A stretch of 64,000 nt of DNA from Cnuibacter physcomitrellae (GTDB lineage: Bacteria; Actinomycetota; Actinomycetes; Actinomycetales; Microbacteriaceae): positions 560,214 to 624,213 of the forward strand of contig NZ_BMHD01000001.1 of NCBI RefSeq assembly GCF_014640535.1, written 5' to 3'. The position numbers were made by a program, and so were the translations under genes. Positions 18,915 to 24,676 of the stretch are shown here, one piece after another (the first letter of the stretch is position 1; each line of letters begins with the position of its first letter). The notes below the pieces were generated by a model. It was not told where the DNA came from and searched no databases. It saw nothing but the letters and a program-made list of their open reading frames with translations.

Positions 18915-20999
18915 GTGGCTTCTCCCTCCGACTACTCCGCCCGGCACCTCTCCGTCCTCGAGGGGCTCGAGGCGGTGCGCAAGCGCCCCGGCATGTACAT
19001 CGGCTCGACCGACTCGCGCGGGCTCATGCACTGCCTGTGGGAGATCATCGACAACTCGGTCGACGAGGCTCTGGCCGGACACGGTGACCGCATCGACGTG
19101 GTGCTGCACGACGACGGCAGCGTCGAGGTGCGCGACCGCGCCCGCGGCATCCCCGTCGACATCGAGCCGAAGACCGGGCTCTCGGGTGTGGAGGTCGTCT
19201 TCACGAAGCTCCACGCCGGCGGCAAGTTCGGGGCGGGCTCCTACGGGGCGTCCGGCGGTCTCCACGGCGTGGGCGCCTCGGTCGTGAACGCCCTGTCGGA
19301 GCGGCTCGACGTCGAGGTCGACCGCGACGGGAAGACCTGGGCGATGTCGTTCCACCGCGGCGAGCCGGGTGTGTTCGACGACAAGGGCACCCCCTCCCCC
19401 GACGCCCCCTTCACGCCCTTCGAGTCGGGCAGCGAGCTGCGCGTCGTCGGCAAGGTGGCGAAGGGCGTCACCGGCACGCGCATCCGATACTGGGCCGACC
19501 GTCAGATCTTCAGCCCCGGCGCCACCTTCCAGGCCGAGGGCCTGGTCGATCGTGCCCGGCAGACCGCGTTCCTCGTTCCCGGCATCCTCATCGAGATCAC
19601 CGACCGTCGCACCGAGGGCGAGAACGTGGAGTCGTTCCGCTTCGAGGGCGGGATCTCCGAGTTCGTCGAGCACCTCGCCGCCGACGCTCCCGTCACCGAC
19701 GTGTGGCGGATCAGCGGGACCGGCTTCTTCACCGAGACCGTCCCCGTGCTCACCGAGGGCGGGGCGATGGTCCCCACCGAGGTCTCGCGCGACTGCGAGG
19801 TCGACCTCGCCCTCCGCTGGGGCATCGGGTACGACACCGACGTCAAGTCGTTCGTCAACATCATCTCCACGCCCAAGGGCGGGACGCACCTCGCGGGCTT
19901 CGAGGCGGGCCTGCTCAAGTTCCTGCGGCAGACGGTCGAGGCGAACGCACGCCGACTCAAGGTGGGCAACGACAAGCTCGAGAAGGACGACGTGCTCGCC
20001 GGCCTCACCGCCGTGCTCACGGTGCGCCTGCCCGAGCCTCAGTTCGAGGGTCAGACCAAGGAGGTGCTGGGCACCCCCGCCGCGCGGGCGATCGTCTCCA
20101 AGGTGCTCACCGACGGGTTGAAGGAGCGCTTCTCGTCCAGCAAGCGCGACGACAAGACGCAGTCGTCCCTGGTGCTCGACAAGGTCGTGGCCGAGATGAA
20201 GGCCCGCGTCTCCGCCCGGGCGCACAAGGAGACTCAGCGACGCAAGAACGCGCTCGAGTCGTCGTCGCTCCCCGCGAAGCTCGTCGACTGCCGCAGCAAC
20301 GACGTCGCCTCGAGCGAGCTGTTCATCGTCGAGGGCGACTCCGCGCTCGGCACCGCCAAGCTGGCCCGCTCGAGCGAGTTCCAGGCGCTCCTGCCCATCC
20401 GCGGCAAGATCCTCAACGTGCAGAAGGCGTCGATCGCCGACATGCTCTCGAACGCGGAGTGCGCGTCGATCATCCAGGTGATCGGGGCCGGGTCCGGCCG
20501 GACGTTCGACCTCTCGGCTGCGCGCTACGGCAAGATCATCCTGATGAGCGACGCCGACGTCGACGGGGCGCACATCCGCACCCTTCTGCTCACGCTGTTC
20601 TTCCGGTACATGCGTCCGCTCATCGAGGACGGCCGCGTCTACGCCGCCGTGCCGCCGCTGCACCGCGTCATCGCGATCAACCCCGGGTCGAAGCCGAACG
20701 ACGTCATCTACACCTACTCCGAGGCCGAGCTCCGCGGTGTGGTGAAGGACATCCAGCGCTCTAAGCGCCGGTACCAGGAGCCGATCCAGCGGTACAAGGG
20801 CCTCGGCGAGATGGATGCCGACCAGCTGGCATCGACGACGATGGACCGCGCTCAGCGCACGCTGCGCCGCGTGAACGTCGCCGACGCCGCCGCGGCCGAG
20901 AAGACGTTCGAGCTCCTCATGGGCGACGAGGTGGCCCCGCGCAAGGAGTTCATCATCGCCGGCTCGAACGACCTCACCCGCGACCGCATCGACGTCTAG
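18915..20999 (+). CDS. parE: DNA topoisomerase IV subunit B
   Basis: ATPase subunit of topoisomerase IV, 694 aa. GHKL ATP site: EIIDNSVDEALAGHGD, RARGIPVDI, GGLHGVGASVVNALS. Transducer lysine region: LKVGNDKLEKDDVLAGLTAV. TOPRIM domain: SELFIVEGDSALGTAK, LLPIRGKILNVQKA and LMSDADVDGAHIRTLLLT (the DxD metal site), then QRYKGLGEMDADQLASTTMD. It begins with GTG. Convergent with gatD across hairpins. Confidence 0.93.
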   Translation: MASPSDYSARHLSVLEGLEAVRKRPGMYIGSTDSRGLMHCLWEIIDNSVDEALAGHGDRIDVVLHDDGSVEVRDRARGIPVDIEPKTGLSGVEVVFTKLHAGGKFGAGSYGASGGLHGVGASVVNALSERLDVEVDRDGKTWAMSFHRGEPGVFDDKGTPSPDAPFTPFESGSELRVVGKVAKGVTGTRIRYWADRQIFSPGATFQAEGLVDRARQTAFLVPGILIEITDRRTEGENVESFRFEGGISEFVEHLAADAPVTDVWRISGTGFFTETVPVLTEGGAMVPTEVSRDCEVDLALRWGIGYDTDVKSFVNIISTPKGGTHLAGFEAGLLKFLRQTVEANARRLKVGNDKLEKDDVLAGLTAVLTVRLPEPQFEGQTKEVLGTPAARAIVSKVLTDGLKERFSSSKRDDKTQSSLVLDKVVAEMKARVSARAHKETQRRKNALESSSLPAKLVDCRSNDVASSELFIVEGDSALGTAKLARSSEFQALLPIRGKILNVQKASIADMLSNAECASIIQVIGAGSGRTFDLSAARYGKIILMSDADVDGAHIRTLLLTLFFRYMRPLIEDGRVYAAVPPLHRVIAINPGSKPNDVIYTYSEAELRGVVKDIQRSKRRYQEPIQRYKGLGEMDADQLASTTMDRAQRTLRRVNVADAAAAEKTFELLMGDEVAPRKEFIIAGSNDLTRDRIDV

Positions 21000-21105: not shown

Positions 21106-21861
21106 CTACTCGCTGAGGGGGCGGGCGGCGATCGTGTCGCGGGCCTGGCGGGCGCGCTCGTCGATCTCGGCGAGGCGCTCCTCGGCGGCGGCCGCGTCGG
21201 GGTACGACTGGCCTCGTACCGCGAGGGCCTGCTCGAGCAGGACGTCGGCGAGCTCGGGGTTGTTCGCCAGGATGGGGCCGTGCATGTGGGTGCCCAGGAG
21301 TGTGCCCTCCCAGAAGCCCTCCTCGCCTCGCACTCCCTCGACGGCGGCGGTGTTGCCGCGACCGTAGACCACGGTGCCCAGGGTGGCGTGCGACCCGACG
21401 TCGACGAACGAGCCGCGATTCTCGAAGCCCACGACCGTGCCGAGGCGCGGCGAGGAGAGGACGAAGTCGCCCACGACACGGTCGCCGCCGTGCCGCGTGG
21501 TCACCGGGAAGACACCGGCCCCCGAGACGGTCTCGCCTGTCTCCAGGGTGATCGACTCGCCGAGGAGCTGGAACCCCGCCCCCACGGCGAGGAACGGCAC
21601 GCCCGACGAGGGGAGCTCGCGCAGGGGCGAAGCCAGCGCCTCCACGACGGACCGCGACACGAGCTGCGCCGAGACGGGACCGCTGCCGACGAACACCAGG
21701 TCGATGCCGTCGATCGAGGGAAGCGCATCCGGCTCGTCGACCGCGACGACCTCGACGGGCAGGCCCCGCCACTCGGACCGCAGCCGGAGGATCTCGACGT
21801 TCCCCGACTCGCCGTTCATGCCGAGGAGCCGGGGCAGCAGGTGGAGGATGCGCAGGGTCAC
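21106..21861 (-). CDS. gatD: GatD-like CobB/CobQ-type glutamine amidotransferase lacking the catalytic cysteine
   Basis: Homologue of GatD, which supplies ammonia from glutamine to MurT for amidation of D-Glu in lipid II. The 251-aa protein keeps the class-I fold: IDLVFVGSGPVSAQLV, PFLAVGAGFQLLGESITL, GFENRGSFVDVG, and GTHMHGPILANNPELAD with the catalytic-type His194. The nucleophile elbow, normally CGGYQ or CAGYQ, reads GAGFQ: Gly94 (codon GGG at 21580-21582) replaces Cys, and the protein has no Cys at all. It should therefore have no Cys-dependent glutaminase activity. The start GTG 21861 overlaps the murT stop (GTGA), so the two are coupled. Confidence 0.85.
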   Translation of the reverse strand: MTLRILHLLPRLLGMNGESGNVEILRLRSEWRGLPVEVVAVDEPDALPSIDGIDLVFVGSGPVSAQLVSRSVVEALASPLRELPSSGVPFLAVGAGFQLLGESITLETGETVSGAGVFPVTTRHGGDRVVGDFVLSSPRLGTVVGFENRGSFVDVGSHATLGTVVYGRGNTAAVEGVRGEEGFWEGTLLGTHMHGPILANNPELADVLLEQALAVRGQSYPDAAAAEERLAEIDERARQARDTIAARPLSE

Positions 21862-23141
21862 GCCCCACCGCCTTCCAGCTCCTTGAAGCCGAGCACCTTG
21901 CGGATCGACATCATGAGCTCGTAGTTCAGGATCATCACCTTGTGTCCGGTGGAGGGCGGCGGCAGCGCGAGGAAGCGCTTCACCGCGCGCCGCACGTCGA
22001 GGTCGACCTCGCCCACCGGCATCCCGAGGTAGCCGAAGCGCACGGCGAACTGCCACGCCTTCGAGCCCGTGATGCCGTCGACGTGGTCGAGACGGGAGAA
22101 GTCGATGTCGTAGATCCACGACGGATCCGGCGTGCCCTCGTCGACCGCGAGGAACACCTGCTCCGGCGTCGCGTCGAGAGCGTCGAGGTTCAGCTGCAGC
22201 GAGGCCGGGTTCTTCATCATGATGATCTCGACCTGCTCGCCGTCGATCTCGAGCATCTCGCCGCGACCGTAGACGGTCTCGAGAGCGTCGAGCGCCAGCG
22301 CCACCAGCTCGGGCTGGAAGCGGTCTCCGAGCACGCTCTTCGCCGTCGCCGCGGCCGCGGCCGCATCGAGCGCGTAGTGCATGCCTCGCGCGGGAAGCCG
22401 GACGACGACCTGCGTGTCGCCCAGGGCGAGCGTCGCGTGGACGCCGTCGAGGGCGACGACCTCGACCGAGGCGGGGCGCTCCTTCGACGTGGAAGGGGAG
22501 TCGAACCGATCGGCGGTCGCGACCCCGTGCCCTGCGGCCTCCACCAGCGCGGGCGCGCCGCCGAACCAGCTCACGCGTCGGCCCTCACGGGCGGGGATGC
22601 GCTCGTCGATGTCGACGAGAAAGTTGTCCTCGCGGTTGAGGATGAGACCGTCGGTCGCCGAGGCCGCGACGGTGGCGAGCATGGTCGCCACCCGGTCGGG
22701 CTCGTGGTACCGGTTGAGCTGGTCGATCTGGATGTTCAGCAGCAGCACGGTGCGGGGCTTGAGGAGCCCGGCCAGCCGCGGACCGTAGCCCTCGTCGACC
22801 TCCAGCACGGCGATGTCGGCGTCGAGCCGGCCCGAGACCGACACGTCGGCGAGCAGAGCCGACGCGATGCCCTGCGGAAGATTGCCCCCCGACGGGTTGG
22901 TGAAGACCTTCAGGCCGTGCGCCCGGACGATCGCCGCGAGCATGTTGGTCGTCGTGGACTTGCCGTTCGACCCGGAGACCGCGACGACCCCGTCGGGGAT
23001 CGCCGAGATCGTCCGGGCGAGGAAGCCGGGATCGACCTTCAGCGCCGTCGCACCCGGGATCGCCGAGCCGCCGCCGCGCAGACGCGCGGCGACGCGGACG
23101 GCGCGGCCGATCAGGACGGCCGCGGCCGTTCGTGCTCCCAC
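21858..23141 (-). CDS. murT: MurT-like Mur ligase-family enzyme without the zinc ribbon
   Basis: A 427-aa Mur-ligase-fold protein. ATP loop VVAVSGSNGKSTTTNMLAAI (GSNGKST at 57-63), then TNPSGGNLPQGIASALL, LEVDEGYG and LLNIQIDQLNRYHEPDRV, typical of MurT. The C-terminal DUF1727-type domain has MMKNPASLQ, PDPSWIYDIDFSRLD and GSKAWQFAVRFGYLGMPV. Canonical MurT carries four Cys in a zinc ribbon in the middle domain (around residues 190-225 here); this protein has no cysteine. Canonical NPAGFNEVL is changed to NPASLQLNL. It starts with GTG four bases after the sigA stop and overlaps gatD, so it probably lies in one operon with both. Confidence 0.85.
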   Translation of the reverse strand: MGARTAAAVLIGRAVRVAARLRGGGSAIPGATALKVDPGFLARTISAIPDGVVAVSGSNGKSTTTNMLAAIVRAHGLKVFTNPSGGNLPQGIASALLADVSVSGRLDADIAVLEVDEGYGPRLAGLLKPRTVLLLNIQIDQLNRYHEPDRVATMLATVAASATDGLILNREDNFLVDIDERIPAREGRRVSWFGGAPALVEAAGHGVATADRFDSPSTSKERPASVEVVALDGVHATLALGDTQVVVRLPARGMHYALDAAAAAATAKSVLGDRFQPELVALALDALETVYGRGEMLEIDGEQVEIIMMKNPASLQLNLDALDATPEQVFLAVDEGTPDPSWIYDIDFSRLDHVDGITGSKAWQFAVRFGYLGMPVGEVDLDVRRAVKRFLALPPPSTGHKVMILNYELMMSIRKVLGFKELEGGGA

Positions 23142-23145
23142 GGGC

Positions 23146-24453
<1,308 letters not shown>

Positions 24454-24676
24454 CAGATCACCTTTCGTCCCCAGGATCGGAAGATCGCGCACGAGGTGCA
24501 GAGCGGCGGGGCTTCCGGTCCGTGATGTTTTCGGACATTACTAAGACCCATGTCAAGTCGTGACGTTCGCTCACCGAGGATCCGGGTGCGACTCGCGACA
24601 GGAACGGGTCTGTACCTTCGATTATTGCACGGAAGCCCGTGTGCTCCTCACACGCGCCGGCGCGAACACCGCACCG

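Follow-up and report, generated by a model that had tools for sequence, protein, structure and literature searches.

In a 64,000-nucleotide stretch of the genome of Cnuibacter physcomitrellae (Microbacteriaceae; contig NZ_BMHD01000001.1, positions 560,214 to 624,213), referred to here as the window, sigA is followed after 4 bases by the start of a murT-like gene, which in turn shares four bases with a gatD-like gene (minus-strand GTGA, 21858-21861). The nucleophile elbow of the GatD-like protein reads AVGAGFQ against TICGGYQ in S. aureus GatD, with Gly94 in the place of the nucleophile Cys, and the catalytic His (His194, HGP motif) is present; the Cys count is zero in both proteins, and both open reading frames (ORFs) are intact. 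Replacement of the Cys by Gly94, retention of His194, the absence of Cys from an intact pair, the GTGA overlap and the adjacency to sigA had been pointed out in a preliminary description of this DNA, and all of them were confirmed. In addition, the oxyanion Gly-Gly-Gly of canonical GatD is Gly-Ser-Gly in the window, and the MurT-like protein retains the P-loop, the acceptor Asn and the acidic metal residues, with its ADGRD motif changed to DEGTPD.

The Pfam matches of the pair are GATase_3 (7e-17), Mur_ligase_M (2e-10) and MurT_C (2e-7), and its scores are far under the NCBIfam cut-offs for isoglutaminyl synthase, with 84.8 and 125.2 bits versus equivalog cut-offs of 400 and 450 for GatD, and 105.5 and 97.9 bits versus 800 for MurT. 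The AlphaFold model of GatD (mean pLDDT 95) has its top matches in the Protein Data Bank (PDB) in GatD of S. aureus, S. pyogenes and S. pneumoniae, and that of MurT (mean pLDDT 90) in MurT chains; the sole internal segment of the MurT model with pLDDT below 50 is residues 141-144, in the gate loop. Having both the Mur_ligase_M and MurT_C domains and a match to the Mur fold, the window MurT belongs to the Mur ligase superfamily, and the pair as a whole, judged from sequence and modelled fold, is homologous to GatD/MurT. A canonical second GatD/MurT had been named in the preliminary description as an argument against its proposal; it was looked for, and no second GatD or MurT_C, a hidden canonical pair included, was found in the genome of the window organism.

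Like the lipid II isoglutaminyl synthase MurT-GatD of S. aureus, S. pneumoniae and mycobacteria, the system has an overlapping gene pair, the corresponding folds, the ATP and acceptor residues and the glutamine-capturing Arg; unlike it, the window pair lacks the nucleophile Cys, has a broken oxyanion Gly-Gly-Gly, has lost Arg135 and the ADGRD motif of MurT, and is fixed at sigA. The best reading of the evidence as a whole is that the pair would be an amino-acid ligase derived from isoglutaminyl synthase. The topoisomerase gene at the far edge of the locus (Table 1) is convergent with gatD in the window and lies on the same strand as the pair in most relatives.

Table 1. Features of the sigA-parE locus in the window
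Feature	Positions	Strand	Basis
GatD-like subunit (class B), 251 aa, no catalytic Cys	21106..21861	-	ORF, Pfam, residue check, AlphaFold
Gly94 codon, position of GatD nucleophile Cys	21580..21582	-	computed from start at 21861
His194 codon (HGP motif), present in window, not in all class B	21280..21282	-	computed
Arg128 codon, counterpart of canonical GatD glutamine-capturing Arg	21478..21480	-	residue table; role from excerpts of PMC6085368
MurT-like ligase (class B), 427 aa	21858..23141	-	ORF, Pfam, residue table, AlphaFold
sigA, directly upstream of murT, constant edge of variable locus	23146..24492	-	sequence recognition
Type II topoisomerase B subunit (parE/gyrB-like), other locus edge	18915..20999	+	sequence recognition

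Classes of the pair and their residues

The comparison covered 199 genomes of the window's family (Microbacteriaceae), together with order-level loci and 80 named loci. A GatD match was found in 152 of the 199 genomes, a MurT_C match in 136 and either of them in 161, and each of the first 111 loci examined (two of them the window itself) held a GatD ORF and a MurT ORF. After removal of genome-duplicate loci ahead of the residue table and tree, 221 pairs were sorted into class A, with Cys (62 pairs, 16 in the family and 46 outside), class B (145 pairs, the window included, all within the family) and class C, marked by a THNA or TQNA motif (14 pairs, all within the family in this set). Because class membership was decided by which residue stands at the Cys column and by the THNA-type motif, the presence of Cys throughout class A is true by definition, and the independent statements about the Cys are those from synteny, family membership and tree. 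Every one of the 46 pairs examined in the order's other families has the Cys, and the order-level sample contained no class B pair outside the family. The two genes adjoin each other in 218 of the 221 pairs; in the other three, the best match was a fragment, had a shifted start or lay elsewhere on the locus. The identity of the window GatD to GatD of other genera is mostly low, about 29-53%, save for the two nearest genera.

In a MurT+GatD tree made without the class rule, whose long branches leave details unsure, 142 of the 145 class B pairs fall into one clade and class C into a second, and the Cys-bearing pairs lie outside both; the three leftover class B pairs, divergent and without Cys, cluster near class C. 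Since classes B and C are separate clades, at least two losses of the Cys are required, barring its regain. The genome of locus L044, presumably that of Tropheryma whipplei, retains a strongly diverged Cys-less pair at sigA. A Cys-less MurT-GatD also stands at sigA in L056 (G029, taken as Pontimonas salivibrio); excerpts of the genome paper on this species report no pentaglycine-bridge enzymology (PMC6106888).

At the Cys column, class B (n = 145) has Gly in 107 pairs, Ala in 24, Ser in 7, Asn in 5 and Thr in 2. Exchange of C94 for Gly, the residue present in the window, or for Ser abolishes amidation in S. aureus GatD, according to excerpts of two papers (PMC6113224, PMC6085368) from which the residue roles used here are also taken, including that of the Arg capturing glutamine and that of Arg135 of MurT, which lines the ammonia gate. 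The known glutaminase route cannot operate in the Cys-less GatD. The middle oxyanion Gly, present in all 62 Cys-bearing pairs, is found in 6 of the 145 class B and none of the 14 class C pairs. The catalytic His is kept in 98 of the 145 class B pairs and in none of class C (0/14), so the retention of His194 stressed in the preliminary description holds for the window and fails as a trait of Cys-less pairs at large. The glutamine-capturing Arg is retained in 137 of 145 class B and in all 14 class C pairs.

The MurT residues for ATP and acceptor, Lys59, Asn85, Glu110, Glu113 and Arg304 in pneumococcal numbering, do not vary in any of the 221 rows, and the ATP-dependent half of the pair is, by its residues, intact. 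In place of Arg135, 136 of the 145 class B pairs have Val, Ile or Thr, and class C retains the Arg; the ADGRD/DNAAD motif, located by others near the muropeptide site (excerpts of PMC6113224 and PMC6085368), is gone in the class B and class C rows shown. Over 12 pairs of related loci, dN/dS was 0.06-0.28 for GatD and 0.03-0.20 for MurT (0.22 and 0.18 in one canonical pair), low values which indicate that both proteins are maintained.

Two other traits of the window had to be set aside. Absence of Cys from the whole pair is no special signal, being common in class B (88/145). The loss of the zinc ribbon, taken in the preliminary description as part of the change, was rejected as a companion of Cys loss: among Cys-bearing pairs the CxxC...CxxC pattern occurs in 6 of the 46 from other families and in 2 of the 16 from this one, so that most Cys-bearing pairs of the order are also without the ribbon, and it is kept in 12 of the 14 Cys-less class C pairs (class B, 2/145).

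Exchange of genes between sigA and parE

Where the flank suffices, the gene immediately upstream is sigA in 110 of 114 class B pairs, 14 of 14 class C pairs and none of 23 Cys-bearing pairs, 15 of which are in the family; none of the 124 family pairs directly downstream of sigA (110 class B, 14 class C) has the Cys. The sigA region was examined in 12 canonical-only family genomes, two of them assigned by MurT_C score alone, and none has a pair between sigA and parE; the sigA-parE interval of Amnibacterium sp. CER49 is likewise without a pair.

By gene content, 28 of the 199 family genomes carry a CofE-like gene instead of a pair, 18 carry a canonical pair only and 10 neither. sigA was located in 37 of the 38 genomes without MurT/GatD (in G022 the best match was a 50% paralogue), and among 20 such regions, 14 have the gene of a 235-aa PF01996 protein right after sigA; the remaining six comprise four empty intervals, one with transporter genes and one ended by the contig end. 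A close CofE-like gene (E below 1e-80, genome-wide) is present in 28 of the 38 genomes and in none of the 161 with MurT/GatD (Fisher 5e-26), although genomes and genera are not statistically independent, in this test as in those below. By coordinates, 25 of these 28 genes lie no more than 1.5 kb after sigA. The locus protein shares its Pfam family (PF01996) with CofE, the F420-0:L-glutamate ligase; unlike CofE, it scores 34.9 bits against an equivalog cut-off of 180.65. Because of this distance from the cut-off, and because no significant PDB match was found (best E 0.08), the CofE-like genes are regarded as a separate subfamily. Among the 80 named genomes, 59 have a class B pair, 4 a class C pair, 12 a CofE-like gene and 2 no visible cassette (L290, L291), a cassette here being a Cys-less pair or a CofE-like gene; three loci (L244, L250, L273) are incomplete.

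Both forms of the cassette occur under the titles Cryobacterium, Frigoribacterium and Salinibacterium, and sister species differ, Microcella putealis having a class B pair and M. alkaliphila a CofE-like gene. On a SigA+ParE tree (a FastTree reconstruction in which many forks are weakly supported and many rows are short), the CofE label changes 19 times, with at least 13 changes forced by well-supported branches, and the class C label 9 times, with 6 forced. Equal function would predict just such a pattern, in which two unrelated ligases replace each other repeatedly and exclusively at one locus. A distant CofE homologue (37-39% identity) exists in 3 of the 161 genomes with MurT/GatD, adjoining MurT-GatD in 2 of them. 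At L336 (of genus g53, as is L335), sigA, a distant CofE homologue, MurT, GatD and a racemase homologue stand in one row, possibly an intermediate state, and L363 has a class-C-like MurT with a CofE neighbour.

The CofE-like gene is often accompanied by an alanine-racemase homologue or by a PF14397 ATP-grasp gene. The latter lies on the opposite strand at CofE-type loci L114, L116, L123, L124, L129, L212 and L230 and at class C loci L037, L061, L062, L074, L075 and L085, and is seldom seen beside class B pairs. Racemase homologues are frequent in the sigA-parE locus. They stand in tandem in the cassette of L118 (3008-4807; one of about 240 aa and one of full length), and also in G057, G138, G163 and others; some kind of racemase is required for D-diamino bridges, and the tandem genes may form a two-part racemase for diamino acids. 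An EctB-type gene was met once, at the CofE-type locus of G056 (L127, 3619-4897, minus strand, in reverse-complement coordinates), where a diaminobutyrate aminotransferase above the NCBI cut-off is an obvious supplier of diaminobutyrate (DAB).

Relation of the cassette to wall type

Interpeptide bridges are also made by the FemAB/MurM tRNA-dependent transferases, which differ in family and in attachment site, building bridges on residue 3 in A-type walls. FemAB and alanine-racemase genes were counted in 66 chosen genomes of the 199, 41 with a cassette and 25 without, of which 18 are canonical-only (6 assigned by MurT_C score alone). FemAB was found in 3 of the 41 genomes with a cassette versus 18 of the 25 without (Fisher 6e-8), and by genus in 3 of 34 versus 12 of 15 (Fisher 2e-6), a distribution roughly inverse to that of the cassettes. 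Among genomes without a cassette it occurs in 13 of the 18 canonical-only ones and in 5 of 7 with nothing; among those with one, in 2 of 19 with class B only, 0 of 4 with both pairs, 0 of 6 with class C and 1 of 12 with a CofE-like gene. Three genomes of genus g49 (G048, G118, G173) have seven FemAB matches each, and neither MurT-GatD nor a CofE-like gene was found in them; by eye, the sigA-parE interval of G048 (L131) holds an amino-acid-type ABC transporter.

Two or more alanine-racemase ORFs, with multiple matches in one reading frame counted once (G020, G048, G072, G118, G173), are present in 27 of the 41 genomes with a cassette versus 1 of the 25 without (Fisher 3e-7), and by genus in 23 of 34 versus 1 of 15. 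They occur in 14 of 19 genomes with class B only, in all 4 with both pairs and in 8 of 12 with a CofE-like gene. The window organism has two alanine-racemase ORFs in tandem, on another contig.

Clavibacter michiganensis carries a class B pair and, according to excerpts of published work, has complete B2gamma bridges in which the D-Glu carboxyl bears D-DAB. B2gamma walls are described for the genera Subtercola and Agreia (PMC5945732) and for Herbiconiux (PMC10011130), a B2beta wall with D-Orn for Frondihabitans (PMC5945732), and group-B walls for Cryobacterium, Frigoribacterium, Glaciihabitans and Salinibacterium (PMC7033078); Rhodoluna is B2beta (PMC4156110), its genome not being identified with certainty in the sample. 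The idea that the module dictates the diamino acid was discarded, as class B pairs occur under genus names with DAB, D-Orn and D-Lys, and the CofE-like gene in Salinibacterium (Lys, Orn).

Proposed function and its alternatives

It is rather likely that the pair is the ligase that loads the bridge amino acid in the group-B wall, with GatD as a non-catalytic subunit. MurT would bind ATP and, in the manner of Mur ligases, form an acyl phosphate at the activated alpha-carboxyl of the D-Glu (or hydroxy-Glu) residue of the wall precursor; the amine of the bridge amino acid, rather than ammonia, would attack this acyl phosphate to give the 2-to-4 bridge of group-B peptidoglycan. That amino acid is probably a D-diamino acid such as D-DAB, D-Orn or D-Lys, and some species might use Gly. 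GatD, its glutaminase lost, would be retained as a structural subunit, and the persistence of its glutamine-gripping Arg points to a part in binding or delivering the amino acid; the pocket may have been opened when MurT lost its ADGRD motif and, in class B, also the gate Arg. In the proposed reaction an amino acid serves as the amine in acyl-phosphate chemistry, as it does in MurC-MurF and the pseudomurein ligases, to which there is a fold match; unlike these, MurT is without an N-terminal UDP-binding domain (excerpts of PMC6113224), and they have no GatD-like partner. In other family members this role would fall, at the same locus, to the CofE-like ligase, whose family is a second candidate bridge enzyme, beyond the one proposed in the preliminary description. 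Where bridges have two residues, the ATP-grasp gene beside CofE and some class C loci could, as a guess, add the second.

The preliminary description had held that the ammonia supply was abandoned and that MurT now couples the bridge amino acid. This agrees with the Cys loss at one syntenic locus, the intact ligase residues, the ligase exchange, the inverse relation to FemAB, the extra racemases and the B-wall carriers; the zinc ribbon proved unrelated, Cys loss is not exclusive to B walls, and the pair is not in every family member. A broader view, which could equally well be right or wrong, is that the sigA-parE interval is an exchangeable wall-bridge cassette, in which Cys-less MurT-GatD, of at least two origins, and the unrelated CofE-like ligase would be interchangeable as loaders of the bridge amino acid in group-B peptidoglycan, the dead glutaminase would be an amino-acid feeding subunit, and gain or loss would switch a lineage between A-type (FemAB) and B-type cross-linking.

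Several observations weigh against a bridge-loading function of the pair. Part of the family is without the Cys-less pair, as counted above, and four family genomes (G053, G065, G123, G162) carry a canonical pair beside a Cys-less one, all of them FemAB-negative. FemAB is missing from 5 of the 18 canonical-only genomes and from 2 of the 7 (the best assembled of ten) with neither system, it has a match in three cassette genomes, and as a marker of A-type bridges it is no more than rough, because a Bacteroides control was also positive. Amnibacterium sp. CER49 has a canonical pair only and no FemAB, its relative A. setariae having a class B pair, and two or more racemase ORFs were found in only 1 of 6 genomes with class C. 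At the locus itself, the CofE-like gene is on a contig other than that of sigA in G043, G093 and G155, the sigA-parE interval of G093 is empty, and in genus g53 the distant CofE homologue stands beside MurT-GatD. The named cassette carriers are members of B-wall genera, with wall types given mostly at genus level, and the module does not evidently fix the bridge residue, since carriers of the CofE-like gene and of MurT-GatD are both described as B-type as far as found. Beyond the family, comparison of class C GatD with 396 genomes of the phylum gave 19 matches, ten weaker ones with Cys and nine strong, class-C-like ones without it, from two other families. One of these nine genomes is taken as Atopobium parvulum, whose wall is A4alpha, L-Lys-D-Asp (excerpts of PMC3035223); Cys loss alone is therefore not equivalent to a B wall, and the pair of this organism must act otherwise, or substitute residue 2 without cross-linking. 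The expectation that Cys loss tracks group-B walls agrees with the named carriers within the family, which come from B-wall genera, and disagrees with the presumed A. parvulum.

The A. parvulum pair would agree with continued amidation of D-Glu by MurT using free ammonia, GatD being a dead scaffold, as an A-type wall leaves the carboxyl amidatable; retention of all ATP and acceptor residues of MurT, and of the Gly in the HGP contact motif, points the same way. This explanation is nevertheless improbable. In the carrier C. michiganensis the bridge occupies the D-Glu carboxyl, class B has lost the gate Arg135 and both B and C the ADGRD motif, and amidation accounts neither for the swapping with a CofE-like ligase family nor for the additional racemase homologues. 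The same A4alpha organism would also suit a pair that ligates an amino acid outside the cross-link, such as a glycine side substituent, to the D-Glu carboxyl, the bridge being left to other genes, for example the ATP-grasp genes that adjoin the CofE-like gene and several class C pairs. Such a division of labour is unlikely: the ATP-grasp neighbour is rare at the class B loci seen, and class B genomes of the sample are without a close CofE-like gene, yet C. michiganensis, of class B, has complete bridges.

A pseudoenzyme or regulator, or an enzyme acting on another precursor unconnected to the bridge, could be suspected from the loss of the glutaminase site and of one MurT motif, and from the low identity of most GatD proteins to that of the window. 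Five ligase residues invariant across all rows, the low dN/dS and the swapping of the unit with another ligase family at the same locus argue against it and make it distinctly improbable. Loading of the bridge amino acid by the pair stays the favoured, if provisional, explanation.

Group-B peptidoglycan, cross-linked from D-Glu and not from residue 3, has been used in taxonomy for decades, and the excerpts of the literature searched on group-B wall bridging name no enzyme that starts the bridge. If the proposed function is true, there would be two candidate enzyme families for group-B bridge loading, and the pair would represent a case of a glutamine amidotransferase that lost its glutaminase and became an amino-acid ligase. 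Moreover, the locus would be readable in any genome of the family, which would help to predict wall type from sequence.

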